Shown piece after piece: positions 1 through 29,018 of a DNA stretch of 37,644 nt. The stretch is taken from positions 1 to 37,644 of the forward strand of contig JANQLJ010000098.1 of assembly GCA_028280665.1 (NCBI GenBank), given 5' to 3'. The notes below the pieces were generated by a model. It did not search any database. It saw nothing but the letters and a program-made list of their open reading frames with translations, and had not been told where the DNA came from. Made by a program: the position numbers and the translations under genes. Origin of the DNA: Alphaproteobacteria bacterium. Lineage in GTDB: Bacteria; Pseudomonadota; Alphaproteobacteria; JAJFIK01. Numbering within the stretch: position 1 is the stretch's first letter; each line of letters starts with the position of its first letter.

Positions 1-704
1 CGGTGCGCCTCGGCGTCCTTCTTGAGCCAGCTTCGGATCGCCTTTTCATCGCGCCAGAACGACAGGAAAAGCATCAGCGGTACCAGCAGCAGTGTCAAAA
101 GCATGACGCCCAAGGGGTGATTGCCCAACCAATTGAAGGCTGCATGGATCAGCGCCGCGGCCAGAAATCCCGGCGCGAAATAGGCAAGCTCAAAGACATA
201 GTTTGACGATGCGCCTTCGGCCTGCCGCCCGGTCATGGAGTGGGCGACAAGAGCGAACACGGCGGTGGCCCCGCCATGCATGAGAGCGGTGCCGAAACCG
301 CGCACAAGCCATGTCGCCATGCTCGCCTCGGCAAACTCACGAAGAAAGTAGATGTTCTCGACCACCGCAAAGCCCGAACCCACCGCAAAGCCGGCTATCC
401 CTGCGTCAAGTTTGTAGCCCAGCCTGTTTTGATGAAAAAGAACGATGATCGGGATCGCTTTCAAGGCTTCTTCCAGGAGCGGCGCCACATAGCGGCTCAC
501 ACCTTCAAGGCTAATCGGGAAAACATAAAGTATGACGGTGTTGATCTGCAGCGTGACAATGGCGATGCCTGAGCCGATCAGCACGAGCAGCCCAATCACC
601 TTGGTGGTGATGAGATCAAAAACATCCAACTGGTTAAAAACAAGAAGAAGCGCCAGGACCGGAACAACGGCCATGGCTGCCTTTTGAAGAAATTCGACGT
701 CCAT
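1..704 (-). CDS. PrsW family intramembrane metalloprotease (partial, 3' end beyond window)
   Basis: Reading the minus strand from an ATG at 704-702 gives an uninterrupted frame of 234 codons to the window edge. It begins MDVEFLQKAAMAVVPVLALL and has several hydrophobic segments. Seen motifs: an EExxK signature (Glu78, Glu79, Lys82 in LLEEALKA), a second-helix ENIYF (Glu116), a His143 in LMHGG and HAAFN (His187). This pattern of conserved Glu and His inside membrane helices is that of the PrsW/CPBP-like membrane proteases; PrsW of Bacillus cleaves an anti-sigma factor. The start codon shares one base with the stop of the upstream gene (TAATG), so translation is probably coupled. The substrate is unknown; the two preceding genes in the same unit encode extracytoplasmic proteins. 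No sigma or anti-sigma gene adjoins this gene within the window. Confidence 0.85.
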   Translation of the reverse strand, partial: MDVEFLQKAAMAVVPVLALLLVFNQLDVFDLITTKVIGLLVLIGSGIAIVTLQINTVILYVFPISLEGVSRYVAPLLEEALKAIPIIVLFHQNRLGYKLDAGIAGFAVGSGFAVVENIYFLREFAEASMATWLVRGFGTALMHGGATAVFALVAHSMTGRQAEGASSNYVFELAYFAPGFLAAALIHAAFNWLGNHPLGVMLLTLLLVPLMLFLSFWRDEKAIRSWLKKDAEAH

Positions 705-3700
705 TACATGATTTTCAAGGAGATCAGAACTTCGTCGCCTTGCCGCTCGCCTTCTTCGAAGCCTTGAGCGTAACCGACCGAAAGCGTCATTGGCAATCGG
801 TGGCCGACTGTGAAATTGAAGTCGAGCTGGCCGCCGATGGTCTCGAAGGTGCGCGACGGGCCCATGTTGGGCGCGGTATGGAGCACACCGGCGAAGGCCG
901 CCGGCCGCACGGAACTGAGATAAAGCGCCGGCACACCCACTTCGCGAACGCGCACCGGCGGCAAGTTCACCTCGCCCATCACGCGGACAAACTGGCGGGC
1001 GGAAATCTCATTGATATCAAATCCGGGGAAGCTGTCATATTGACGGTAGCGCTTGACCTCGCGGTCGTCCACGTAATTGTTCCCGAAGGAACCCATGTAA
1101 AAACTCGAAAGGGGACTGTCCTCGCTGCCGCCTGCCGCGCCCGCGGCAGTGTAAATCCATGCCGAAGAATTCGCCACGGGCAGCGGCAAGCCGCCGTTAA
1201 AGCCCACGCGCAGGCTGGGGAAGCCTTCGTCGTTAGCATAGTCGACCCCGGCGGCGGCATCCCATTCGTATCCGCGTTCGTGATCCACGGCGCCGAGCGA
1301 TTTTTGCGTGTCCGTGTAATGAAGCGTGACACCCGCCGAGGCGAGCGTATCGAACTGGGTTTGCACCGCCTGCGCCGCGGGCAGGGTATCAAGACCCGTC
1401 CAGTAGGAGGCATCGAAATCGATTACAAGCTCGCGCGGCGGATCGTAAACGAGCGAGCGGTTATAGTTGAAACTGACTGCCGTGCCGGCCCTTGAGCGTT
1501 CCGTCGGGCCAAAGAGATCGTAAAAATCCGCATCGTTGTGGCGAAACCGGACCGACCAAAAGAGCTCGCTGTACTCAACGTCGATGTGCCAGTTTTGATC
1601 CTCAAGCCCCGCTTCGGGCGAGAAGGAGACCGTCGCGCTCAGTTGGTGAAACTGAAGCGGGTCTTCCAAAACCACATGATAGCCGAAAGCGGTGTAGCCC
1701 CGGTATCCCTCTATGACAGGATAGGCGGTCCCCAGGCCCATCTCGTCGCGTGGCCGGTACCGGCCACGCTGGGTAACGCGCCCGTCGAAGGCAACGCGGT
1801 TGGGCGAACCCGCCGCCCAACCCCGCACCACGGCGTGTTGCCGCGCCACTTGCGAGCCCAAAAAGTTCACCGCATTAAGATCGTCCGTAGGCTGCGGCTG
1901 GATCAAAACCGGGCGGAGGCCATCGCCCGCATACTCAAAGACGATAAGCGAGCCATCCTCTTGCGGTATGGGGCGGAAGAAACCGGTCTCCGCGTTCGTT
2001 ACCGCTTCGATAGCGCCATTCGCAATCTCAAAGCGGAAGATGTTCGAAACCCCTGTGTAGTAGGAACTGCCGTAAAGATAGCGCCCATCGGGGGAGAATA
2101 CGAACCCTTCGGGGGTCGAGCCCCTTAGCTCAAAAGTCTGGATGGGATCATAGATCCCGGCCTCAAGGTCCGCGATACGGAAGACCTGAACCGACTGATG
2201 ACCCAAGATCGTGCCGATGCTCGCCGACAGCATTCTCCCATCGGGCGATATGTCGAGATCGAAAGCGTTGATGCCAAAGTCAAAGGTGTGAACCTGGTTC
2301 CAGCCTGTATAGGGCGCGCGCAGGCGAACCAACGTCACAAAGCCATTGAGATGACGCAGGCCCCATATCGCCCGGTCCTGGCGGTTAAAGACGATATCGC
2401 CGATGCGCCCGTCGCGGATAAGCATCTGGCGCTCGCCCGTTTCCACGTCGATCTCAATGAGATCGCGATAGGCATAATTGTCGGTGGTGTACCAAGCTGT
2501 ATTGCCATCGGGGTCATAAGCAAGCGAGGTCACGCGATAGAGCATCGGTCCCTTGATGTTCGTGAGCCGGCGTATCTCGCCCGTCTCGCGCGACAATACA
2601 CCCACGTGCGCGATCACCCCCGGATAGCGGAACGCCCCGATGATGTCGCCGGTCGAGGGGTTCACGTAGGACCGCGATATGGACCCCAGCCCCCGCCTGG
2701 AGATAGGCTCGGTTTCCGTTACCGGGTATTCGGCGATCACCGCAAGGTTATCGGCCTGAAACTGTTGTTCCCACGAGATCCAATCATCCCAGGCCTCGTT
2801 CATCGGAAGCCCGAAGACATCGCGGAAGTGAATCAAGTAATAGGCGGCGCTGCCTTCGTCGCGCTGCATCCACTCGATGACTTGCTCCGGCGAATAGGCA
2901 AGCGCGAGATAAGAGAAAAACCGCGTACCATAAAGGTAGTTATTGACCCCCACCTGGAAGTCCACTTGCGTGCCTTCGGCTTCAAGGCCCAGGGGTGAAT
3001 AGAAGTAGGCGCCGTCGCGCACCATGGCGCGGAACACCATTTCATCATAGCCGCCTTGCGCGCGGCCATAACCGCCCGCCATCCAGGTTTCCATGAAGAC
3101 GGCGCTGCCTTCGAGAAGCCAACGCGGAACGGTCACCCGCGGCGTCGTCAGATAATTGTAGACGATGGAGAGAGGATGTTCCTGCACCGGCATGGGCTTG
3201 CCGAAGAACGCGCGCCGCCAGAACGCATCGCGGCTGTTCCACACATCCATGGTGGCGACGTGGGCCAGCTCGTGATTGACCAGGGTGAAAAACCGTTCGC
3301 CCGGGCTAAAGGTCTCGAAGGTGAGGCTTAAAGGCGCGACGTCAAACAAAACCGCATTGTTGGGCGAGGACCTGGCGGCTGCATTGCCATAGTCACCAAA
3401 GTCCTTGAGCAGCATCGTGGTGGGCTCCCACGGCTCCCACTCGAAAATGTCGCGGTGAAATTCAAGCGCGTTCTCGAACGCGCGGCCCACGTAAGGGGTC
3501 AGATACGTTCCTGATGGTTCAAAATAGAGAAGGCGGAGATTTTCGGTCTCCACCGTCGCAAGATCGATCAGCGGCACGTGATCCCGCGCACGGTTTTCCG
3601 GCGGTGCAGGTTCGGATCCTTGATCTTGTTGAGGCGCGTTTTCCGAGCCCCCTGAAACAGGAGAGGCCGGGCCTTCCTCCCCCCAGGCGCCGGCCGAGAC

Positions 3701-3781
3701 GACCATGAACGCCGAGAGAAGGAAGACCCGGATACCTGCTTTACTCTTCCAGGCTTTGCGCCTGTCGCAGCCCCCCAGCAC
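704..3781 (-). CDS. Secreted HExxH metallopeptidase with beta-propeller region and beta-rich C-terminus
   Basis: A 1025-residue protein with a Sec-type signal peptide (basic stretch to about residue 18, hydrophobic 19-32, Ala-rich cleavage region). The N-terminal domain has HELAH at residues 170-174 and a downstream WLLEGSA with Glu224, the layout of a gluzincin zinc site (two His plus a Glu). Residues of roughly 360-640 hold repeated blades of the kind SPDGRYLYGSSY and YDPDGNTAWY, typical of TolB/WD40-like propellers. From about 680 to the end there are alternating beta strands finishing in VLISLKIM, which resembles an Omp85/surface-antigen type barrel, although the last residue is Met rather than the usual Phe/Trp. 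The start is GTG, 15 bases after the stop of the repeat-protein gene, with no strong ribosome site; translational coupling is likely. Specific function not recognised; peptidase activity is inferred from the motif. Confidence 0.8.
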   Translation of the reverse strand: MLGGCDRRKAWKSKAGIRVFLLSAFMVVSAGAWGEEGPASPVSGGSENAPQQDQGSEPAPPENRARDHVPLIDLATVETENLRLLYFEPSGTYLTPYVGRAFENALEFHRDIFEWEPWEPTTMLLKDFGDYGNAAARSSPNNAVLFDVAPLSLTFETFSPGERFFTLVNHELAHVATMDVWNSRDAFWRRAFFGKPMPVQEHPLSIVYNYLTTPRVTVPRWLLEGSAVFMETWMAGGYGRAQGGYDEMVFRAMVRDGAYFYSPLGLEAEGTQVDFQVGVNNYLYGTRFFSYLALAYSPEQVIEWMQRDEGSAAYYLIHFRDVFGLPMNEAWDDWISWEQQFQADNLAVIAEYPVTETEPISRRGLGSISRSYVNPSTGDIIGAFRYPGVIAHVGVLSRETGEIRRLTNIKGPMLYRVTSLAYDPDGNTAWYTTDNYAYRDLIEIDVETGERQMLIRDGRIGDIVFNRQDRAIWGLRHLNGFVTLVRLRAPYTGWNQVHTFDFGINAFDLDISPDGRMLSASIGTILGHQSVQVFRIADLEAGIYDPIQTFELRGSTPEGFVFSPDGRYLYGSSYYTGVSNIFRFEIANGAIEAVTNAETGFFRPIPQEDGSLIVFEYAGDGLRPVLIQPQPTDDLNAVNFLGSQVARQHAVVRGWAAGSPNRVAFDGRVTQRGRYRPRDEMGLGTAYPVIEGYRGYTAFGYHVVLEDPLQFHQLSATVSFSPEAGLEDQNWHIDVEYSELFWSVRFRHNDADFYDLFGPTERSRAGTAVSFNYNRSLVYDPPRELVIDFDASYWTGLDTLPAAQAVQTQFDTLASAGVTLHYTDTQKSLGAVDHERGYEWDAAAGVDYANDEGFPSLRVGFNGGLPLPVANSSAWIYTAAGAAGGSEDSPLSSFYMGSFGNNYVDDREVKRYRQYDSFPGFDINEISARQFVRVMGEVNLPPVRVREVGVPALYLSSVRPAAFAGVLHTAPNMGPSRTFETIGGQLDFNFTVGHRLPMTLSVGYAQGFEEGERQGDEVLISLKIM

Positions 3782-3796: not shown

Positions 3797-5083
3797 TTAG
3801 TACGCGCTAATGGCGTTGGCAAAACCCCGGTCCTGCGCCATGGCGGCGAAGGCCGGATCGTTAGCCAGAGCCATAAAGGCCGGATTTTGTGCAAGCGCCG
3901 TAAAGGCTTGCGCATTGCTTGCCAAGGCACTCAGCGCTTGAGCGTTGTTGGCGAGCGCCGAAAACGCCTGCGGGTTCTGTGCCATCGCCGCAAAAGCCTG
4001 TGGGTTTTGGGCGAGTGCATTAAACGCCTGGGCGTCAAGAGCGAGAGCCGAAAACGCTTGGGCGTTCAAAGCGAGTGCGTTGAAAGCCTGTGCATTTAGC
4101 CCCAGTGCCGCAAAGCCCTGCGCATTTAGCGCCATCGCTGAAAACGCTTGTGCGTTCGACGCAAGGGCGCTGAACGCCTGAGCGTCAAGGGCCAGAGCCG
4201 AAAACGCCTGTGCATTCAAGGCAAGTGCATTGAACGCCTGTGCATCCATTGCCAGGGCATTCATGGCTGCTGCGTCGGCCGCGAGGGCATTAAACGCCTG
4301 GGCATTCATGGCAAGCGCATTCAACGCCTCGGCATTGCTTGCAAGAGCGCTAAACGCCTGTGCATCCCAGCCTTGCGCCTCAAATGCCTGGGCATCTTGA
4401 AGCAGAGCCGTAAACGCTTGCGGGTTTTGAGCAAGCGCCGTAAATGCTTGAGCGTTATTGGCAAGTGCAGCAAACGCTTGCGGATGCATAGCCAGCACTT
4501 CAAACGCTGCCGGATATGACGCCAGCGCCGCAAAAGCCTGCGGATGCTGTGCCATTGCCGAGAACGCTTGCGGGTGCTGTGCAAGTGCCGTGAAGGCCTG
4601 CGGATGCTGCGCGAGCGCCGCGAAAGCCTGCGGATTTTGCGCCAAGGCGGTGAACGCTTGCGCGTCCCAACCCTGGGCGGCAAAAGCTTCCGCATTGCTT
4701 GCCAGAGCCGCAAAGGCCTGCGGGTTCTGGGCAAGCGCGGTAAACGCTTGTGGGTTTTGCGCCATCGCGGCGAGTGCCTGCGGGTTTTGCGCCAGAGCCG
4801 CAAAATTTGCATCCATGGCAAGCGCCCGGAACGACGGGTCATTGACCATCAACTCAAACGCGTCCGTTTGCATAAGTAATGCAACTGACTGATCACCAGT
4901 CGAAACGTCCGCCTCCGAGACTTGACTGTCCCGATAACGCTCGACGGGAGCGATGGTGCCGGCCGACTGTCCGTCTACAGACGGCCCGTTCATTGCGACG
5001 AAATATACGCTCACCGCTATGACTGCTACTGCGCCCATGGCCCCAAGGCCCAATGTGGCATTTCTACTCAGTTTGTCAGACAT
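3797..5083 (-). CDS. Membrane-anchored protein of thirty tandem decapeptide repeats (unknown function)
   Basis: Start chosen at the ATG encoding MSDKLSR, preceded by GGGAGG about 12 bases upstream; the frame is open further upstream but that part is unlike the rest. The 428-residue product has one membrane segment (about residues 10-31), a short linker with charged residues (about 45-80), and then exactly thirty 10-residue units (96-395) with the consensus A-L-A-x-N/D-P/A-Q-A-F-x. It has 9-residue variants on both sides, ending with three of them and a short tail. The repeat zone contains almost no charged residues and is rich in Ala, Gln, Asn and Phe. Asn/Asp followed by Pro could be a helix N-cap, which would make a chain of short helices distantly like STI1 'NP' repeats; an amyloid-like or solenoid fold is equally possible. 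It is first of a three-gene unit with a secreted metallopeptidase and PrsW. Confidence 0.8.
   Translation of the reverse strand: MSDKLSRNATLGLGAMGAVAVIAVSVYFVAMNGPSVDGQSAGTIAPVERYRDSQVSEADVSTGDQSVALLMQTDAFELMVNDPSFRALAMDANFAALAQNPQALAAMAQNPQAFTALAQNPQAFAALASNAEAFAAQGWDAQAFTALAQNPQAFAALAQHPQAFTALAQHPQAFSAMAQHPQAFAALASYPAAFEVLAMHPQAFAALANNAQAFTALAQNPQAFTALLQDAQAFEAQGWDAQAFSALASNAEALNALAMNAQAFNALAADAAAMNALAMDAQAFNALALNAQAFSALALDAQAFSALASNAQAFSAMALNAQGFAALGLNAQAFNALALNAQAFSALALDAQAFNALAQNPQAFAAMAQNPQAFSALANNAQALSALASNAQAFTALAQNPAFMALANDPAFAAMAQDRGFANAISAY
3899..4798 (-). repeat. 30-bp in-frame tandem repeats, 30 units (decapeptide array)
   Basis: Thirty consecutive 30-base units encode the decapeptides of the repeat protein, with no insertions or deletions across 900 bases. 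Units are diverged at third positions and at a few residues. The odd unit AQGWDAQAF occurs twice, as units 5 and 15, each next to or near an ALASNAEA unit, and pairs ALALNAQAFS-ALALDAQAF occur at units 20-21 and 25-26. These point to duplication of larger blocks as well as of single units. Confidence 0.95.
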
Positions 5084-5312
5084 GGAAACCCAAGCCTCCC
5101 TCGGTTGTCTGTGGTTAAGATGACCTAAATGTGAGAGGCGGTCAAAGAAATGTAAGGGCGGGGAATGTTTAGCCGTCACAGAAGAAATAGCAAAAATCCG
5201 GGAGTTTTTTGTTGGCGTGGGGCGGTCTGCGGGTTCCAATTATTTTATGCTTGAAATATTTATCAGCCAAGCCAGACTGAGGGGTGTCTGAATCCCGCAA
5301 GGGAGACCCCTC

Positions 5313-7601
5313 ATGCGAATCGCCTGCCTGGGCGGCGGCCCCGCCGGTCTTTACTTCGCCATTTCGGCAAAACTTCGCGCGCCCGGCCATGAAGTTATCA
5401 TTTTCGAGCGCAACCGGGCCGACGACACGTTCGGCTGGGGCGTCGTGCTTTCCGACGAGACCCTCGACAATTTCGCCCTCAACGATCCGGTCAGCGCAGA
5501 GGCGATTCGCGAGCACTTTGCCTATTGGGACGACATCGCCGTTCATTACCGTGGCACGCGCACCCTTTCCACCGGGCACGGGTTTTGCGGCATCGGCCGG
5601 CAAAAACTTTTGGACATCCTGCAGGCAAGAGCGAAGGAGCTTGGTGTCGAGCTGCGCTTTGAGCATGAGTTCGATTCAACTGCGGAGTTCGGCAGCTTCG
5701 ATCTCATCGTGGCGGCGGATGGCATCAACTCGAAGACCCGCGCGGAGCACGCCCAAGCTTTCAATCCGAATACGGATATTCGGAAATGCAAATTCGTCTG
5801 GCTTGGCACCCACCAAAAGTTCGACGATGCCTTCACCTTCATTTTCGAAGAAACCGAACATGGCTGGATTTGGGCGCATGCCTACCAGTTTGATTCCAAG
5901 ACGGCGACATTCATCGTCGAATGCAAAGAGGAAACCTGGAACGCCTTTGGATTTGGCCAAATATCTCAGGCGGAAAGCATCGCCGTCTGCGAAGACATCT
6001 TTAAAGACTATCTGGGCGGGCACTCGCTCATGTCCAACGCCGCGCATTTGCGAGGCTCGGCGTGGCTCAACTTCCCGCGTGTCCTTTGTGAAAAGTGGTC
6101 TCACGGAAACATTGTGCTTATGGGCGATGCGGCGGCGACCGCGCATTTTTCCATCGGATCCGGTACCAAGCTCGCCATGGAAAGTGCGATCGCGCTGGCG
6201 GATTTTTTGGAGAGCGAGCCGACTTTAGAGGCCGCTTTTGCGCGTTACGAAGACGAGCGGCGCCTTGAGGTTCTGCGGCTGCAATCGGCGGCGCGCAATT
6301 CGCTTGAATGGTTCGAAGACGTGGAGCGTTATCTCCATCTTGATCGGGTTCAGTTCAATTACTCGCTTTTGACCCGTTCCCAGCGCATCAGCCATGAGAA
6401 CTTGCGCCTGCGCGACAAGGCCTGGCTTGAGGGCGCGGAGCGCTGGTTCCTTGCCCAAGCGGGCGCGCCTTCGGACGAGGCGCACGCGCCCATGTTCGCG
6501 CCCTTTCGCCTGCGGGGGCTTGAGCTTAAGAACCGCGTCGTGGTCTCGCCCATGGCCCAATACCGGGCCGAGGAGGGCTGTCCCACCGATTGGCACTTCG
6601 TGCACTATGCTGAACGCGCAAAGGGGGGCGCGGGGCTTGTCTACACAGAGATGACCTGCGTCTGCCCCGAAGGCCGCATCACGCCGGGTTGCACCGGGCT
6701 TTATACGACTGAGCACGAAGCCGCGTGGACACGCATTGTGGACTTTATTCATCGCGAAACGGACGCCAAGGTGGCAATCCAGCTCGGCCATGCGGGCCCC
6801 AAAGGCTCGACGCAACTGGGCTGGGAGGACATGGATGCGCCGCTTGATGCGGGAAACTGGGAGATAATGGGTCCCTCGCCAGTGCCGTGGTCGGAGCGTA
6901 ACCAAATCCCGCGCGAGATGACCCTCGATGACATGGTGAAGGTGCGCGGCCAGTTCGTCGCCTCGGCGGCTATGGCGGAGCGTTGCGGCTTTGATCTTCT
7001 CGAGCTTCATTACGCGCACGGCTACCTCATGTCCGCATTCATCACGCCGCTGACCAACAAGCGGACGGATGAATACGGCGGGAGCCTTGAGAACCGCATG
7101 CGGTTTCCGCTTGAGGTGTTTCATGCAGTGCGCGCCGTATGGCCGGACGAAAAACCCATTTCCGTCCGCATCTCGGCAAATGACTGGGTCGGTGAAGATG
7201 GTATCACGCCCGAAGACGCGGTGGAGATCGCGCGCCGCTTGAGCGATGCGGGCGTTGACATCATCGACGTCTCCGCCGGCCAAACCTCGACCCACGCCGA
7301 CCCCGTTTACGGCCGCATGTTCCAAACGCCCTTTTCCGACCGCATTCGCAACGAGGCAGGCCTTAAAACCATGGCGGTCGGCAATATCTATAAGCCCGAT
7401 CATGTGAACTCGATCCTGATGGCGGGGCGCGCCGACCTTGTCTGCCTTGCCCGGCCGCACCTTTCCAATCCTTACTGGACGCTGCACGCAGGTGCGGCGC
7501 TGGGCGACAAGGCGGCGAACTGGCCCAAGCCTTACTACCCAGGCCGCGATCAGTTGCACCGCCTTGCCGAGCGCGCCGATGCGCAGATTTTGAAGGTCTG
7601 A
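5313..7601 (+). CDS. Bifunctional anthraniloyl-CoA (or salicylyl-CoA) monooxygenase/reductase
   Basis: A 762-residue fusion. Residues 1 to about 385 form a class A FAD monooxygenase: GGGPAG at residues 7-12 is the Rossmann FAD motif and [15 protein letters not shown] is the flavin-ribityl GD motif. Residues about 395-762 form an old-yellow-enzyme NADH:flavin oxidoreductase ([20 protein letters not shown] at its start; [25 protein letters not shown]). This fusion is known from 2-aminobenzoyl-CoA monooxygenase/reductase of Azoarcus evansii and from relatives annotated as salicylyl-CoA 5-hydroxylase: the first half hydroxylates C5 of the ring, the second reduces the product. The CoA ligase and RidA-like gene in the same operon favour the amino substrate. 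AGGGAG lies 9 bases before the ATG. It is the first gene of the operon; the MarR gene follows after one base. Confidence 0.88.
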
Positions 7602-7602
7602 G

Positions 7603-8058
7603 ATGGAGAGCCCCACGCTTTCCAAACAAAGATTGCGCCTTTGGCTGCGGCTCTTGCGCGCCTCGCGCGGCATCGAAAACGGTGTGCGCAACTTCTTGCG
7701 CGAGGAATACGGCTTCACCTTGCCGCGGTTTGACGTGCTGGCCGCGCTCCATAGGGCCGGTGACGGCCTTACCATGAGCGAGCTTAGCCGCGAGCTTATG
7801 GTTTCGAACGGAAACGTCACCGGCATCGTGGACCGGCTGGCAGAAGACGGTTTTGTTGAGCGCAAGCACCGCAAGGGTGACCGCCGTACCAGCCTTCTTC
7901 AACTGACCGAAGCGGGCCGGTCATCATTTGTGCAAATGGCGCGCGATCACGAATCATGGATCGACCGCCGACTCGAACAGCTAAATGAAATCGAGGTCGC
8001 AAACTCCATCAAACTTCTTGAAGGCATCCAACGTTCCGCAGAAAGAGAAACACAATGA
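7603..8058 (+). CDS. MarR family transcriptional regulator
   Basis: A 151-residue protein with the winged-helix layout of MarR: the recognition region reads [33 protein letters not shown], followed by a wing with [13 protein letters not shown]. It begins one base after the stop of the monooxygenase gene, and its own stop overlaps the ATG of the hydratase (ATGA), so it is co-translated with the pathway. Regulators of this family commonly sense aromatic acids or their CoA thioesters; here it most likely autoregulates the operon from the region upstream of 5313. The ligand is inferred, not shown. Confidence 0.9.
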
Positions 8059-8867
8059 CCAGTATGAGCGCATTCAAGCCCAAGCATTTTCTTTACCGCA
8101 TGGAAGGCCCTGTCGCGGTGGTGCAGCTCGACCGGCCCGAGCGCAAAAACCCTTTGACGTTTGAAAGCTACGCGGAGTTGCGCGACATGTTCCGCGATCT
8201 TGTCTATGCGGACGACGTCAAAGCCGTGGTCTTCGCATCCAATGGGGGCAACTTCAGCTCAGGCGGCGATGTGCACGACATCATCGGCCCGTTGGTTTCC
8301 ATGTCCATGAAGGACCTGCTCGCTTTCACCCGCATGACCGGGGATCTGGTCAAAGCGATGATCGGCGCGCCGCAACCCATTATCGCCGCGGTGGACGGCG
8401 TTGCCGTGGGCGCGGGCGCCATCATCACCATGGCCTCGGATATGCGCATCGCAACGCCCGAAGCCAAGACCGCCTTTCTGTTCAATCGCGTGGGCCTTGC
8501 GGGCTGTGACATGGGCGCGTGCGCCATGCTGCCGCGCCTGATCGGCCAGGGCCGCGCGGCGGAGCTTTTGCACACGGGAAGATCATTTAGTGCCGAAGAA
8601 GGCCTTGCCTGGGGCTACTTCAACCGCATCGTGCCCGCGGGTGAACTTGAGGCCGAAACCCTTAAGCTTGCAAGTGCGATCGCCGCCGGGCCTTCCTTCG
8701 GGCACATGATGACCAAAACCCAGCTCAATCAGGAATGGGCCATGGGGCTTAACGAGGCCATTGAAGCAGAAGCCCAAGCCCAGGCCATCTGCATGCAGAC
8801 CGCCGATTTTGAGCGGGCCTACCACGCCTTTGTCGCCAAGGAAAAACCGAAGTTTGAAGGAAACTGA
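8055..8867 (+). CDS. Enoyl-CoA hydratase/isomerase family protein
   Basis: A 270-residue crotonase-fold protein. Seen are the oxyanion-hole segments ([10 protein letters not shown] and [18 protein letters not shown]), the [18 protein letters not shown] stretch typical of the family, and the C-terminal helix region. The start overlaps the MarR stop by four bases. In the 2-aminobenzoyl-CoA pathway a beta-oxidation-like hydration and ring opening follows the monooxygenase/reductase step, and this enzyme is the obvious candidate within the operon. Which of hydration or ring hydrolysis it catalyses cannot be told from sequence. Confidence 0.9.
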
Positions 8868-8886
8868 CCCCCGGGGAGACGCCGCC

Positions 8887-10521
8887 ATGCTCGGACCAAG
8901 CGCCCATGAAGACACGTTCGCGCGGGACAACCTGCCCGCACCCGAAGACTGGCCGGAATTTTTATTGGGTCCACAATTTCAGTACCCGGATCATATCAAC
9001 ATCGCGGTCGAGTTGACCGATGCCATGGTCACCAAGGGCTTTGGCGATCATGACGCGCTGATCGGTAATGGCCGCCGCCGCACCTATAAGGAGCTTGCCG
9101 ACTGGACCAATCGGCTGGCGCACGCGCTGGCTGAGGATTATGGCGTAAGGCCCGGCAATCGGGTGATGATCCGTTCGGGCAACAATCCGGCCATGGTGGC
9201 GTGCTGGCTCGCGGCGACCAAGGCGGGCGCAGTGGTGGTCAACACCATGCCTATGCTGCGCGCGGGCGAGCTTTCAAAGATCATTGACAAGGCGGAGATC
9301 AAGTTCGCCCTATGCGATACGCGCATGATGGACGAGCTTACCTCCGCCGCAAAAACGAGCAAGTTCCTCGAAACCGTCGTTGGCTTTGACGGCACCTCCA
9401 ATCACGATGCCGAGCTCGACCGGATCGCTCTTGAAAAACCGGTACACTTCGATGCGGTGCAAACCGGACGTGATGACGTGGCGCTGCTCGGCTTTACCTC
9501 GGGCACCACGGGCGAGCCCAAAGCAACCATGCATTTTCATCGTGATCTCTTGATCATCGCCGATGGCTACGCGCAAGAAGTGCTGCAAGTAACGCCTGAT
9601 GATGTCTTTGTGGGTTCGCCGCCACTGGCATTCACCTTTGGGCTTGGCGGGCTGGCAGTATTTCCCTTGCGCTTTGGAGCGACGGCAACGCTTTTGGAAA
9701 ACGCAAGCCCGGCGAACCTCATCGAAATCATCGAAACCTACAAGGCCACGATCTGCTTCACCGCGCCCACCGCCTACCGGGCCATGATGGTGGCGGCGGA
9801 TGAGGGCGCCGACCTTTCAAGCCTGCGCATTGCGGTTTCCGCGGGCGAGACCTTGCCCGCGCCGACCTATGAAGCCTGGACCGAAACAACCGGCATTCCC
9901 ATTCTCGACGGCATCGGGGCGACGGAGCTTCTGCACATATTCATCTCAAACCGGCTCGATGATGCGCAGCCCGGCTCGACCGGGCGCACGGTAACGGGCT
10001 ACGAGGCGCGGGTTGTCGACGATGACATGCAGACCTTGCCCGCAGGCGAGATGGGCAAGCTCGCCGTGCGCGGGCCCACCGGTTGCCGCTATCTCGCGGA
10101 CGACCGGCAGAACGACTACGTCAAGGATGGCTGGAACCTCACTGGCGATACGTTCACCATGGACGAGGACAGTCACTTTCATTATGTCGCGCGCGCCGAT
10201 GATATGATCATTTCCGCGGGCTACAACATCGCCGGGCCCGAGGTTGAGGTCGCGCTGCTCTCTCATGACGATGTGGCGGAATGCGCGGTGATCGGTCTTC
10301 CGGATGAAGACCGCGGGTCCGTCGTGGCCGCCTACGTGGTGTTACGCGAAGGCGTGCCCGCCGGCGAGGATTGCGTCAAACAGCTTCAGGATCACGTCAA
10401 AGCGGCCATCGCGCCGTACAAGTATCCGCGCGTCGTCAAATTCGTTGAGGCCTTGCCCAAAACGCAAACCGGCAAGCTGCAGCGGTTTGCCTTGCGCGTG
10501 CAAGCCAAGGAAAGGGCCTGA
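8887..10521 (+). CDS. Benzoate-type CoA ligase (probable 2-aminobenzoate-CoA ligase)
   Basis: The chosen ATG follows GGGGAG eight bases upstream; the frame is open further but that part overlaps the hydratase gene. The 544-residue product is an ANL-superfamily acyl-CoA synthetase: P-loop TSGTTGEPK (204-212), ISAGYNIAGPEVE hinge region and PKTQTGKLQR with the catalytic Lys near the C-terminus. The N-terminal LPAPEDWPEFL and the overall length fit the benzoate/2-aminobenzoate-CoA ligases. It activates the aromatic acid with ATP and CoA, providing the thioester for the monooxygenase encoded by the first gene. Substrate (anthranilate rather than benzoate or salicylate) is inferred from the neighbours. 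Confidence 0.88.
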   Translation: MLGPSAHEDTFARDNLPAPEDWPEFLLGPQFQYPDHINIAVELTDAMVTKGFGDHDALIGNGRRRTYKELADWTNRLAHALAEDYGVRPGNRVMIRSGNNPAMVACWLAATKAGAVVVNTMPMLRAGELSKIIDKAEIKFALCDTRMMDELTSAAKTSKFLETVVGFDGTSNHDAELDRIALEKPVHFDAVQTGRDDVALLGFTSGTTGEPKATMHFHRDLLIIADGYAQEVLQVTPDDVFVGSPPLAFTFGLGGLAVFPLRFGATATLLENASPANLIEIIETYKATICFTAPTAYRAMMVAADEGADLSSLRIAVSAGETLPAPTYEAWTETTGIPILDGIGATELLHIFISNRLDDAQPGSTGRTVTGYEARVVDDDMQTLPAGEMGKLAVRGPTGCRYLADDRQNDYVKDGWNLTGDTFTMDEDSHFHYVARADDMIISAGYNIAGPEVEVALLSHDDVAECAVIGLPDEDRGSVVAAYVVLREGVPAGEDCVKQLQDHVKAAIAPYKYPRVVKFVEALPKTQTGKLQRFALRVQAKERA

Positions 10522-13129: not shown

Positions 13130-15361
<2,232 letters not shown>

Positions 15362-15447
15362 TTACGATATAGATTGTTCAGGCTCGACCCCCGGCGGCCA
15401 GACGAGCCGCCAAGATGCATTTGGTAATAATGTTACCCTAGCGGCAG

Positions 15448-17772
15448 TTACTCCGCCGGGGCTTTGACATCGGTCAAAGAGGCCTTGGTTGGGGCTTGCC
15501 GCGTATCCACGAACGCCCGGAACACAAAGAGTACAAAGGCCAGCATACCGACCGCGAACACGATGTCTCCCGGCACACGCACCCAGACGAGGGTTTCCAT
15601 GAGCGGGCTGTGCATGAACTCCGCGGTGCGCGCGTAGGCGTAGTACTCGCTGAAGCTCGCGTAGCCTTGCCACAGCCCCTGCGGCAGCAGCGACATGAAC
15701 ACCATCATGGCAAGGCCGATATTGAGGCACCAGAAGGCGATCCCCAAGAGCTTCGTATTCCATACCGCGGGGTTCGTGAGCCCGCGCAGGCAATAGAGCA
15801 TGAGCCCCAGGCCCAACATGCCGTAGACACCGAAGAGCGCCGCGTGGCCATGGGTCGGCGTCGTGTTGAGACCTTGGAGGTAATAAAGCGCCAAGGGCGG
15901 GTTGATCAGGAACCCGAGCATGCCCGCGCCCACGAGGTTCCACAAAAGTACCGAACCAAGGAACAAGAACGGCCAGTGGTATGTCGCCTCCCATTTTTGC
16001 TGACCTTCCACGCGGTAGCGGTTGTAGGCCTCAAAGCCCACGACGGTGAGCGGGACAACCTCAAGGGCGGAAAACACAGCGCCCAAAGCCAGCACCGACA
16101 TGGGCGTGCCTGACCAATAAAGGTGGTGGAAGGTGCCAAGCACGCCCGCGCCAAGGAAGATGATGGTCGCGATAAGCACTGAGATGGTGGCGATCGATGC
16201 GCGCACGAGGCCCATCTTGACGAGAAGCGCCGCGACGATGGCGGTGGCAAACACCTCGAACACGCCTTCGACCCAGAGGTGCACGACCCACCAGCGCCAG
16301 TATTCCATCATCGAGATGTGAGTGCGCTCACCCCACATAAGGCCTGCACCGAACAAAAGCCCGATGGCGATCGTCGACACCACCACCAGGAAAACAAGCG
16401 ACCCGGCTTTGTCCTTGGACTTGAACATGGGCCAAAGCGCGCGCAGCATCAGGAACGTCCAGAGCAGAAGACCGATGAAGAGGTAGATCTGCCAGAAGCG
16501 GCCAAGATCGATGTATTCATAGCCCTGATGGCCGAACCAGAAGGCCGCGGTGAGATTCTCGAACATGCCGTGGACCGAGGCCCATTCGCCCGCGAATGAT
16601 CCGACCACAATGACGAGCAGCGAATAAAACAAAAAATTCACCAGGAACTTCTGGAAGGGCGGCTCATAGCCTGTAAGTAGCGGCGCCACGTAAAGCCCCG
16701 TCGCCAACCACGCTGTTGCGATCCAGAAGATGCCGAGTTGCGTATGCCAGGTGCGGCTGACCACATAAGGAAGCCAGTCGAAAAACGGCATGCCATAGAG
16801 TCCCTGACCCTCAACGGCAAAGTGCGCGGTCAAAATGCCCAAGCCCACTTGCACAAGGAACAGCGCGCACACGATCCAGAAGAACTTGGCCGTCGCCTTC
16901 ATGGAGGGCGTGATGGTGGCGCCATCCATGAAGTCACTTGTGGCAACGCCGCCGTCAGGCTCGCTGTCGGCACGCCAAAGATCAAACTCCTTGGCATAGA
17001 ACCACACGAGCGCACCGATCCCGCCGATCAGCAGGAAGACGGAAATGAAGGTCCAAATAAATACAGGCCCCGTGGGCGTGTTTCCCACCAAGGGTTCATG
17101 GGGCCAGTTGCTTGTGTAGGTGAAATCGCGGTCCGGACGTTCCGTCGCCGCCGACCACGACGTCCAGAAGAAAAAGTCGTTCAGCGCCGCTGCATCGTCC
17201 ACCGACAGGCTCGAGTGAAGCGGCAGGGCATATTCCTCGCGCAGGGTGAGCGCCTCCTCCCCTTCGCCGCGGAACAGAGCTGAGAAATGCGCACCAACTT
17301 GACGGATCGCCTGGGCGCGCTCGGCGCTGATGGTAACGACACCGGACTCAGGCTCGTAGGTATTGGTCCGCATCTCAATTTCGAGCGAAGCACGCAGCCA
17401 TTCCTGATCCCGCGGATCGGTTACATCGTCGAAGGCAACGCCTTCTTGCTGATAGGACCGGATGTCAAGCAGCGCCACCGCTTCCCTGTGAAGCCAATCG
17501 GCGCTCCAGTCCGGTGCGAGGTAGCTGCCGTGACCCCAGATGCTGCCTTGCTGCATACCGCCCATGGCGCGCCAGACCGCCTGGCCGCGTAATATGTCCT
17601 CGTTTGTGAGTATGGTTTCGCCAGCCTCGGTGACGACCGCATTGGGTATGGGAGGCTTGGTCTGATAAATCTCGCCGCCGAAATAGAGCAGCGTGCCGAA
17701 CATCACCGCCATGCTTGCGATCAAAATGATCCAAAGGCGGCGAATGGAAAACAACGTGCGATAGGTAGCCAT
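15448..17772 (-). CDS. norB: Quinol-dependent nitric oxide reductase (qNor)
   Basis: The ATG at 17772 has GGGAGGA at normal distance; the frame is open 22 codons further but without a ribosome site. The 774-residue product has the qNor layout: one N-terminal helix (13-31), a periplasmic domain (about 35-230) that replaces NorC but has no CxxCH, and then about twelve membrane helices. Ligand residues are visible: TWHTQ (His343), VVHLWVEGVFE (His498, Glu502, Glu506), TFHHLYW (His549, His550) and a late HGHAALFGVYG. It reduces NO to N2O with electrons from the quinol pool. Its gene (also called norZ) precedes nirS on the same strand, coupling NO production with removal. An FNR/Dnr-type box lies about 105 bases upstream of the start. 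Confidence 0.95.
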   Translation of the reverse strand: MATYRTLFSIRRLWIILIASMAVMFGTLLYFGGEIYQTKPPIPNAVVTEAGETILTNEDILRGQAVWRAMGGMQQGSIWGHGSYLAPDWSADWLHREAVALLDIRSYQQEGVAFDDVTDPRDQEWLRASLEIEMRTNTYEPESGVVTISAERAQAIRQVGAHFSALFRGEGEEALTLREEYALPLHSSLSVDDAAALNDFFFWTSWSAATERPDRDFTYTSNWPHEPLVGNTPTGPVFIWTFISVFLLIGGIGALVWFYAKEFDLWRADSEPDGGVATSDFMDGATITPSMKATAKFFWIVCALFLVQVGLGILTAHFAVEGQGLYGMPFFDWLPYVVSRTWHTQLGIFWIATAWLATGLYVAPLLTGYEPPFQKFLVNFLFYSLLVIVVGSFAGEWASVHGMFENLTAAFWFGHQGYEYIDLGRFWQIYLFIGLLLWTFLMLRALWPMFKSKDKAGSLVFLVVVSTIAIGLLFGAGLMWGERTHISMMEYWRWWVVHLWVEGVFEVFATAIVAALLVKMGLVRASIATISVLIATIIFLGAGVLGTFHHLYWSGTPMSVLALGAVFSALEVVPLTVVGFEAYNRYRVEGQQKWEATYHWPFLFLGSVLLWNLVGAGMLGFLINPPLALYYLQGLNTTPTHGHAALFGVYGMLGLGLMLYCLRGLTNPAVWNTKLLGIAFWCLNIGLAMMVFMSLLPQGLWQGYASFSEYYAYARTAEFMHSPLMETLVWVRVPGDIVFAVGMLAFVLFVFRAFVDTRQAPTKASLTDVKAPAE
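15462..15479 (-). promoter_or_regulatory. FNR/Dnr-type box for nirS, inside the 3' end of norB
   Basis: The sequence CTTTGACATCGGTCAAAG is a perfect inverted repeat with seven-base arms and a four-base spacer, containing the TTGAC-N4-GTCAA core of Crp/FNR-family NO or oxygen regulators. It lies in the last codons of norB, centred about 121 bases before the nirS ATG. A possible -10, TAACAT on the minus strand, falls at 15435-15430. This would allow nirS to be transcribed separately from norB. Confidence 0.75.
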
Positions 17773-17840
17773 TTGGTCCTCCCAGCCCAGCCGGACCAAA
17801 CCCGCGCGCGAGGGCTCCGCGCGCCGATTCGGTTGCACCG

Positions 17841-26772: not shown

Positions 26773-28302
26773 TTGCGACTTTTAGGACTGCCGATACAGC
26801 CCTTTTTGAGGGCCTCCAACGCAGCCCCTTGGGCGGCCGTGGCGGGCATGCTGTCTTTATTGTTGGCCGCATCTTCATCTCACGCGCTGGGCCCTTCCGT
26901 AAACGTGATCCGGGTGCCTGACGCAATCAACCTTGTTCTGCTTGTTGCAGGTGACGATGATCTGGATGAGCCTCCGGACGTCGACGAGCCCGATACTCCC
27001 GACATTGAAGACCCCATCGATGAAGTAGATATCGTCGAAGACGAAACTGGCGATATAGATGAAGCAGGCGATCTTGATGAGCCTGAGGACGGCGGTGAAG
27101 GAGAACCCGAAGAAGGCGAAGAAGAGTCGGGAGAAAGCGAAGAAGAGAATGAAGGTTCCGAAACCGAAGATGACGATGAAACGGAAGAAGCCGAACAAAC
27201 TGCCCAAGGTGAGGCGGGCGTCAACGCTTTCGACCAGGATTTCGACGACGAAGGGTACCTGACCGTATCGGGTGAGTTTTTGGTTTTGCTCGACGATGAT
27301 GCCTCGGACTTGCTTAATCTGGACGGAATCATCGTTGAAGAGGCCTATGCGCTTAACTCGCTCGACGCATCGCTGTACCGCATTTCGGTTGATGAAGATG
27401 ACGATGTTTCTGAGATAGCAATTGCCTTGGCGGACGCCGCGGGCGATGCCGTGGTGGACTACAATCACCTCTATGAGCCCGAAAGCAGCACGGCGGGAGT
27501 CGTAACACCGTGCCCGCCTCTTGAGTGCGCCATACCGCTGGGGTGGCCGAACGATACGCCCAGCGCCGTTCGAATCGGGTTGATCGATACGGGCATTGAC
27601 GAAACCCATCCGGCGCTGGCGAACGCAAACATTCATGTCGAAGATTTCGTGCAGCACGGCCAGGCAGGTTCCAACGGGCACGGCACGGCTATTGCGTCAA
27701 TCCTCGTCGGTGACGACGGCGAGATCTTCCAAGGCCTTGCGGTTGGGGCAGAGCTATATGTGGCGAGCGTGTTCACGGCGGCGCCGTCAGGCGAGCTTGT
27801 CGCAACGGCTGAAAGCCTGGTCCGGGCTATCGATTGGAGCCTGAGCGAAGGCGCCGGTGCCTTAAACCTCAGCCTTGCCGGCCCCCCCAACGAGCTTCTG
27901 GAATTTGCCATTGCGCGAACGGTGGAACGGGGCGTTCCCATTGTGGCGGCGGTGGGCAATGCGGGGCCCGCGGCACCGCCGCTTTATCCGGCAGCCTATC
28001 CAGCGGTCTATGCGGTCACGGCAATCGGGCCGGACCTGATGGTCTATCGGCGCGCGAACAGAGGCGCGCATGTGGACTTCACCGCGCCGGGCGTCGATGT
28101 GCTGGCTGCTGCGGCGGGCGGCGGGTACCGTTCATATACAGGGACTTCATTCGCAACGCCTTTCGTAAGTGTCATCGTCGCGGCAACGAAAGACCGGTCG
28201 GGCGCGCATGACCCCCGGCCCTTGCTTCGCCGCCAAGCGATTGACCTTGGGCGCGAGGGGTACGATCAAACATTTGGCTATGGGCTGATCAATATAGAGT
28301 AG
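26773..28302 (+). CDS. Secreted S8 (subtilisin-like) serine peptidase with acidic N-terminal region
   Basis: A TTG start at 26773 gives a good signal peptide (basic region with Arg2 and Arg13, hydrophobic to about 37); the first ATG, at 26848, would remove the basic part. The 509-residue protein has an extremely acidic Asp/Glu/Gly stretch (about 61-145), a propeptide-like region (about 165-235) and a subtilase domain with the full triad: Asp272 (GLIDTGID), His303 (NGHGTAIASIL), Ser459 (GTSFATP), plus oxyanion Asn396 (VGNAG). It should be an active periplasmic or exported protease. It is divergent from the ECF sigma/anti-sigma pair, and anti-sigma cleavage or regulon membership is a reasonable guess. 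Confidence 0.88.
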   Translation: MRLLGLPIQPFLRASNAAPWAAVAGMLSLLLAASSSHALGPSVNVIRVPDAINLVLLVAGDDDLDEPPDVDEPDTPDIEDPIDEVDIVEDETGDIDEAGDLDEPEDGGEGEPEEGEEESGESEEENEGSETEDDDETEEAEQTAQGEAGVNAFDQDFDDEGYLTVSGEFLVLLDDDASDLLNLDGIIVEEAYALNSLDASLYRISVDEDDDVSEIAIALADAAGDAVVDYNHLYEPESSTAGVVTPCPPLECAIPLGWPNDTPSAVRIGLIDTGIDETHPALANANIHVEDFVQHGQAGSNGHGTAIASILVGDDGEIFQGLAVGAELYVASVFTAAPSGELVATAESLVRAIDWSLSEGAGALNLSLAGPPNELLEFAIARTVERGVPIVAAVGNAGPAAPPLYPAAYPAVYAVTAIGPDLMVYRRANRGAHVDFTAPGVDVLAAAAGGGYRSYTGTSFATPFVSVIVAATKDRSGAHDPRPLLRRQAIDLGREGYDQTFGYGLINIE

Positions 28303-28316
28303 CGAGTTGATTGATT

Positions 28317-29018
28317 ATGATGACCAGAATTTATAGCGCCGCCCGCCAAATTTCTCCGTTCTTGTTCGCCGGATTGGCGTTCCTTGCGGCCATCGCCATC
28401 GACAACGAGGCCTTCGGTCAAACAGGTAACGCGCCAAGCTACGAAGCGGGTACAACCTTCGTCTTTGACAACGGCACCGTGGAACGCTTTACGGGCGGTG
28501 CTGGCAATGAACTCCTGTGGCGTTCCCGGTCGGGCCGGGAATACACCCGAAGCCGGGATTTCTTTGTGCCGATTTTGTCGTGGCGGACATCCAGATCGCA
28601 AGGTGCCAGAGTCGTGAATGGAGATCCAAGCAAAGTTTGGCCCCTCGAACAGCGGCGGCGGGCCCGTTTTTCGGTGGTTACCACAAGCCGGTCACGCGGT
28701 GCGGGCGAAGACTGGGACGAGGCGGAGCTAAACCGTTCCGTCGCGCTGTGGCGCTGCCGTGCCGGACGGCCTCAGCTGCTTGCGGTTCCGGCGGGTGAGT
28801 TTGAAAGCACCGCGATTGTTTGCGAGCGCTACTCAAGCAGCAGCATGCGCGTCCTCAGGCGGCTGACCTGGTACTATGCCCCTGCGGTCGGGCACTATAT
28901 TCGCCGCGAGGAGATCAATTACTCGACCGGTGAACACGCCGAGCGCAATCTGGTGGCGGCGCTCCCGCTCGCGCAAGCCAATGATGCACGGATCGACGCG
29001 ATCTTGGCCAATTACTGA
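28317..29018 (+). CDS. Secreted protein of unknown function
   Basis: The first ATG (28317) or the next codon pair is the likely start; an in-frame TTG lies at 28311. The roughly 233-residue product has a signal peptide (hydrophobic about 12-28, ending AFGQ) and a mature part rich in Arg and beta-like segments, with Cys in WRCRAGRP and IVCERYS that could form a disulfide. It follows the subtilase stop after 14 bases and is probably co-transcribed. No family recognised. Confidence 0.72.
   Translation: MMTRIYSAARQISPFLFAGLAFLAAIAIDNEAFGQTGNAPSYEAGTTFVFDNGTVERFTGGAGNELLWRSRSGREYTRSRDFFVPILSWRTSRSQGARVVNGDPSKVWPLEQRRRARFSVVTTSRSRGAGEDWDEAELNRSVALWRCRAGRPQLLAVPAGEFESTAIVCERYSSSSMRVLRRLTWYYAPAVGHYIRREEINYSTGEHAERNLVAALPLAQANDARIDAILANY

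Follow-up and report, generated by a model that had tools for sequence, protein, structure and literature searches.

A membrane-anchored decapeptide-array protein in a conserved three-gene operon with a peptidase-like/propeller/barrel protein and a PrsW family protease

The stretch of DNA analysed here (the window; 37,644 nucleotides) encodes on its minus strand a membrane-anchored protein with thirty ten-residue repeats, followed by genes for a peptidase-like/propeller/barrel protein and a PrsW family protease. We propose, at somewhat less than even chance, that the first product is a helical rod which is anchored in the inner membrane, sets a length and meets the outer-membrane product of gene 2, and which PrsW can cut near its base. 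The repeat is of a kind already known from phage proteins. The membrane-anchored form, a juxtamembrane box and the three-gene module look new: none corresponds to a family in any library searched, and a literature search that covered few subscription journals found no paper on them.

Results

A decapeptide array under purifying selection

The features of gene 1 are as follows.

3797..5083, minus: gene 1, decapeptide-array protein of 428 aa; ATG at 5083, stop ends at 3797; about 20 relatives
4991..5050, minus: transmembrane anchor, residues ~12-31, predicted N-in; hydropathy 2.21 over 19 residues
4856..4960, minus: juxtamembrane box GT[IVL]AP..R....Q....D...GD......MQTD.F, residues 42-76; without indels in 15 sequences
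4787..4843, minus: N-terminal 9-residue capping units with F85 and F94, from core-residue spacing
3899..4798, minus: array of 30 x 10 residues (96-395), each unit predicted to form one short helix
3800..3898, minus: C-terminal 9-residue capping units with F403, F412 and F421; kept in decapeptide relatives

An in-frame TTG lies upstream at 5239. The ATG at 5083 was preferred as the start because relatives start near it and because AGGGAGG precedes it by about 11 bases. The protein is single-copy in its own genome.

A sequence-only reading of this DNA had described thirty units in exact phase without indels, and our analysis bears this out. Identity within the array at lag 10 was 0.66, compared with 0.19 +/- 0.02 in 2000 composition shuffles (maximum 0.26). 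In a separate comparison identity was 0.62 at lag 10, 0.22 at lag 7 and 0.07 at lag 11; periods 7 and 11 are thus absent, and the array fits a coiled coil as poorly as had been supposed. The flanking 9-residue units, also described before, are real, since the core residues are spaced by 9 on both edges: the spacing is 9 at F85-F94, 10 from L104 to F394, and 9, 9 and 9 at F403, F412 and F421.

The array repeats strictly every 10 residues, and each unit has two hydrophobic core positions. Among the 30 units, columns 1 to 3 hold A (29/30), L (24/30) and A (26/30), columns 5 to 7 hold N/D (25/30), A/P (30/30) and Q (26/30), and columns 8 and 9 hold A (29/30) and F (26/30). Written from the helix cap, the unit reads N/D/H-P/A-Q-A-F-x-A-L/M-A-x. 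There are no K/R, 11 D/E and four H, so that the description of the array as nearly free of charge holds for gene 1. It does not hold for the family, in which R occupies position 10 in 37% of the sampled units of relatives and one array (L034) has 89 charged residues (38 K/R and 51 D/E).

Between units, identity was 68, 81 and 35% at codon positions 1, 2 and 3, and synonymous codons were near-random. Since third positions are nearly random between units, the protein pattern must be old and selected. Between orthologue pairs the dN/dS of the array was 0.004-0.07, with 0-5 gaps over the whole of gene 1, values similar to those of gene 2. These comparisons indicate that the array is under strong purifying selection. 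Recent slippage or repeat expansion at the DNA level was ruled out by the codon variation between units together with dN/dS. Array length among relatives ranged from 343 to 508 residues, with interruptions in many. In many relatives (L014-L019 and L026) gene 1 has two similar half-arrays interrupted by QAQA-type stretches, a super-repeat of decapeptides.

Predicted fold and nearest repeat proteins

An AlphaFold2 model built with 19 sequences (mean pLDDT 64.6, array ~61-84) placed one 8-residue helix in each decapeptide, joined by 2-residue linkers, which agrees with the N-capped short helices suggested earlier. The confidence of the model is moderate, and repetitive sequence can mislead AlphaFold2 and E-values alike; with that limit, the array probably folds as a rod of short stacked helices.

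The top PDB fold match of the array model was 7QLR, the receptor-binding protein gp22 of C. difficile phage CDHS-1 (Foldseek E 1.2e-5, rmsd 11), with a TM-score (TMq) of only 0.49; armadillo solenoids came next. The same entry was the top sequence-profile match (3.8e-13), and the PHROG 7809 tail-fibre family was matched at 2.9e-17. E-values of repeats are inflated, so these matches show the kind of unit and not common descent. Both 7QLR and the PHROG 7809 tail fibres have the unit N-x-x-A-hydrophobic-x-x-hydrophobic-A-x with a period of 10. They differ from gene 1 in being virion proteins whose matched stretches lack the box and the anchor, and their units are T/S/N-rich with an M/I/V core, whereas those of gene 1 are Q/A-rich with an F/L core. 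Among predicted viral structures the best match was the repeat-containing capsid protein of Halobacterium phage phiH (1.6e-7), a virion protein compared by its predicted structure only, at a TM-score of 0.35; a tail fibre was also among the top matches. From the profile and fold matches to phage proteins, the repeat unit is of an already known kind. The statement that no described family has this unit must accordingly be given up. What was found comes near to the characterised repeat family of equal period that the same reading had named as counter-evidence. A literature search on decapeptide and ten-residue repeats, again covering few subscription journals, returned no description of the unit.

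For 7QLR itself, AlphaFold predicts a conformation unlike that in the crystal (PMC10478639); therefore the overall curvature of the gene 1 array model is not to be trusted.

A phage origin of gene 1 was considered and rejected. No match to the array was found in phages or plasmids by tblastn, a result weakened by the low-complexity filtering of BLAST, and a scan of viral contigs gave no confirmed relative. The gene sits in a bacterial envelope operon and not among virion or tail-fibre genes. The predicted helical decapeptide solenoid, whose only solved match in these searches is a phage receptor-binding protein, is thereby extended to a bacterial envelope protein.

Neither pentapeptide-repeat nor amyloid families matched the array in Pfam or NCBIfam (no family HMM matches), in line with the poor fit to pentapeptide repeats noted before. 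A PDB match to the pentapeptide-like part of DotG/IcmE (2.7e-4) was set aside as composition-driven and of another period. The sequence-only reading had also offered assembly as a functional amyloid. The Ala/Gln/Asn/Phe composition of the array would suit one. Fap and curli operons place a repetitive exported protein beside a barrel and proteases, a loose likeness to the present arrangement. The uniform helix prediction, the 7QLR match, the R and D/E carried throughout the array by relatives and the missing amyloid family match all speak against it, and we consider an amyloid very improbable.

The short F/L/M helices could instead form hydrophobic grooves that bind peptides or transmembrane segments as clients, as in STI1 and XPC-binding domains, which share NP/DP-capped short helices with gene 1. 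The XPC-binding family PF09280 scored 27.5 bits against a cut-off of 26.4, and the flanking units are of DPxFxxL type. However, the STI1-HOP_DP family PF17830 scored below its cut-off, and the matches are marginal, probably driven by composition, and inconsistent, L022 falling below both cut-offs. Gene 1 moreover has dozens of strictly spaced units, unlike these domains, and the motif is wholly absent from relative G005, whose array is of another kind (see below). Client binding is therefore improbable, if less so than an amyloid.

An anchor and a constant box

The membrane anchor of the earlier description was recovered as one predicted transmembrane helix. In all relatives with an intact start, an N-terminus of ~8-12 residues, usually with at least one K/R, is followed by one hydrophobic helix. 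Beyond the anchor lies the 35-residue box, in which G, T, A, P, R, Q, D, GD, MQTD and F are invariant across 15 sequences, including that of G005. The box had no family match in Pfam.

Two partner genes in the operon

The sequence-only reading had overlooked both the conservation of an operon of three genes and the swap of the array described further below. The downstream features are these.

704..3781, minus: gene 2, encoding 1025 aa with a signal-peptide-like start, a peptidase-like domain bearing HExxH, a TolB-like propeller and a predicted beta-barrel at the C-terminus
3260..3274, minus: HExxH of gene 2 (H170-H174), invariant among relatives
1901..2704, minus: beta-propeller region of gene 2 (approximate), from a fold match
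710..1771, minus: approximate extent of the C-terminal beta-barrel in gene 2, from predicted structure; weak match to Omp85_2
3..704, minus: gene 3, incomplete because the contig ends within it; intramembrane protease of the PrsW family (PF13367, 3.6e-16)

Gene 2 starts 15 bp after the stop of gene 1, and the ATG of gene 3 overlaps the stop of gene 2 by a base, which makes co-expression likely. Two promoter-like matches, consensus matches only, lie upstream of gene 1 at 5239-5270, compared with 0.3 expected. Genes 1-3 are probably co-transcribed.

The product of gene 2 is predicted to be an outer-membrane protein that combines peptidase-like, propeller and barrel parts. It is apparently undescribed, and the architecture is named in none of the family libraries searched. 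Besides the HExxH, E224 in WxLEGSAVF is invariant and is a candidate third ligand; the two together would make a gluzincin-type motif pair. The peptidase-like domain had no sequence match in Pfam or the PDB, and nothing significant was found when the peptidase domain and the barrel were searched against the PDB as separate profiles. Residues 75-350 (2732-3559 in the window, minus strand) possibly represent an unnamed metallopeptidase family. The best fold match of the propeller was TolB, a match of propeller fold only, since the TolB equivalog TIGR02800 scored 16.6 bits against 343. Similarity of the barrel to Omp85 was weak (0.007, 4 of 13), and PF19143 reached 16.2 against a cut-off of 23.1 in L022.

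By its motifs gene 3 is a clear member of the PrsW family. PF13367 matched the gene 3 family at 2.2e-16 and 3.6e-16, and EExxK, FxxxEN, H143 and H187xxxN were invariant in 14 sequences. In B. subtilis PrsW is the site-1 protease of RsiW (PMC3482391), which would suit a gene 1 product acting as a sensor of regulated proteolysis: strain on the envelope would be felt by the rod, and a signal would follow once PrsW has cut it. However, the cytoplasmic N-terminus, at ~8-12 residues, is too short for an anti-sigma domain, and there is no sigma factor in the operon. Such a sensor seems quite improbable.

Elsewhere in the window, a cluster divergent from the operon (5313-10521, plus) encodes a fusion of FAD monooxygenase and FMN oxidoreductase, a MarR regulator, an enoyl-CoA hydratase and an AMP-dependent acid-CoA ligase; it looks like aromatic acid degradation of the anthraniloyl/salicylyl-CoA type, unrelated to the operon. 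Denitrification genes lie at 13130-17838 (minus), where a NorB-type nitric oxide reductase is next to a cytochrome d1 heme protein that carries two cytochrome c domains. At 26773-29018 (plus) a subtilase (PF00082) precedes an ORF of 235 aa that matched nothing in Pfam.

Distribution and gene order

Scanning genome contigs yielded 14 relatives, mostly from Caulobacteraceae and Hyphomonadaceae MAGs, with a few from Lysobacterales/Wenzhouxiangella-type gammaproteobacteria. In all 14 a gene 2 relative comes after the array gene, and a membrane protein of ~340-370 aa comes next wherever the contig reached that far. Overall about twenty relatives were found, in Caulobacterales-type and some gammaproteobacterial MAGs, with the same gene order. 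Weak array matches in other class members (L005-L013) were discarded, none of their listed ORFs having the array pattern.

A gene 2 probe found carriers in 4/385 genomes of the class, in 1/398 of a phylum sample (the window itself), in 15/60 of the family of G745, and in 1/43 and 3/149 of two other families. Every newly fetched region upstream of gene 2 held an array gene, and the order rod gene, gene 2, PrsW was found at every gene 2 locus with neighbouring DNA available. The operon is absent from two genomes of the same genus; its distribution is thus patchy.

The box was found in 14 genomes and gene 2 in 15 of the 60, and each in 4 of the 385. The fifteenth gene 2 carrier, G790, has its gene 1 cut by the contig end. 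A search with the box alone found gene 2 carriers and otherwise one false match (G065, 8e-4, inside an unrelated LeuD-like ORF). With these two cases set aside, box and gene 2 co-occur one-to-one in the 445 sampled genomes.

A natural swap of the array

In G005 (L036:4222-5529) the anchor, the box and both partner genes are kept, and the decapeptides are replaced by (AASQ)n. This array of 360 aa has a period of 4 (AASQ/AASN) and is Ala-rich, near-charge-free and of mixed codons. The swap of the array beside a constant box suggests that it is the box to which the partners respond, the main contribution of the array being a helical body that is long and rich in Ala; the swap is as expected if helicity and length outweigh sequence. 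It amounts to a natural experiment: the box, as the part that the partners may recognise, is set apart from a rod for which length and helicity would be enough. The C-terminal cap conserved elsewhere is missing from G005, which speaks against a fixed C-terminal docking site.

Discussion

A proposed rod and its rival, a possible exported passenger

With an anchor in the inner membrane and a partner in the outer membrane, the simplest use of the protein is to span or gauge the periplasm as a rod. Gene 1 would encode an inner-membrane-anchored periplasmic protein whose array, with an N-capped helix of 8 residues in each decapeptide, forms an elongated alpha-solenoid. The array would act as a stiff, length-setting rod pointing from the inner membrane towards the gene 2 protein. 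PrsW, possibly together with the gene 2 peptidase, would clip gene 1 near the conserved box, and the clipping would break or release the tether. Computation shows the array with its anchor and box, the order of the genes, the PrsW family of gene 3, the fold of the propeller and the invariant HExxH. The helical solenoid and the barrel are predicted, whereas we infer the bridging, the physical contact between the partners and the cleavage.

The rod is favoured by the helix-per-unit model, with 7QLR as its top fold and profile match, and by a transmembrane anchor in all intact relatives. The constant gene order, the co-occurrence of box and gene 2, and the invariant motifs of PrsW and gene 2 are also consistent with it, as are the retention of anchor, box and partners in G005 and the strong purifying selection on the array. 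Against it stand the moderate confidence of the model, the variation of array length from 343 to 508 and the loss of the C-terminal cap in G005; gene 2 may also face outward and not into the periplasm.

The main rival, export of a surface fibre through the gene 2 barrel, is more probable than a signalling role, client binding or an amyloid. Here the box would be an export or processing signal, PrsW and/or the gene 2 peptidase would free the array, and the barrel would export or display it as a surface fibre or adhesin. A constant N-terminus with a swappable array, a peptidase-propeller-barrel partner and a closest fold relative that is a phage surface-binding protein would all suit such a passenger, and G005, where the C-terminal cap is lost, agrees better with a passenger than with the rod. 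PrsW-dependent release of passengers has been proposed earlier (PMC3482391). However, the relation of the barrel to Omp85 is weak, no secretion domain was recognised, and no adhesion domain follows the array. We regard an exported passenger as possible but doubtful, and keep the rod as our working proposal.

Comparison with known systems

Taken as a whole, the operon may encode an undescribed cleavable trans-envelope tether, in which an inner-membrane rod with interchangeable helical arrays, either a decapeptide solenoid or an Ala-rich tetrapeptide helix, an outer-membrane peptidase-propeller-barrel receptor and a dedicated PrsW form a Tol-Pal-like device from mostly unrelated parts; we hold this broader description to be rather unlikely. 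As in the PrsW family at large (PF13367), the characteristic motifs of gene 3 are conserved. It differs in being the fixed third gene of an operon, and the strictly linked three-gene module would give PrsW a presumed substrate other than an anti-sigma factor.

TolA is an inner-membrane-anchored, Ala-rich periplasmic rod, and gene 1 as proposed here would be like it in these respects. TolB, as the best fold match of the gene 2 propeller, is the second likeness to Tol-Pal. The operon is unlike Tol-Pal in that it is without the TolA C-terminal domain, Pal, TolQ and TolR, in that its propeller shares one protein with a peptidase-like domain and a barrel, and in that PrsW is added.
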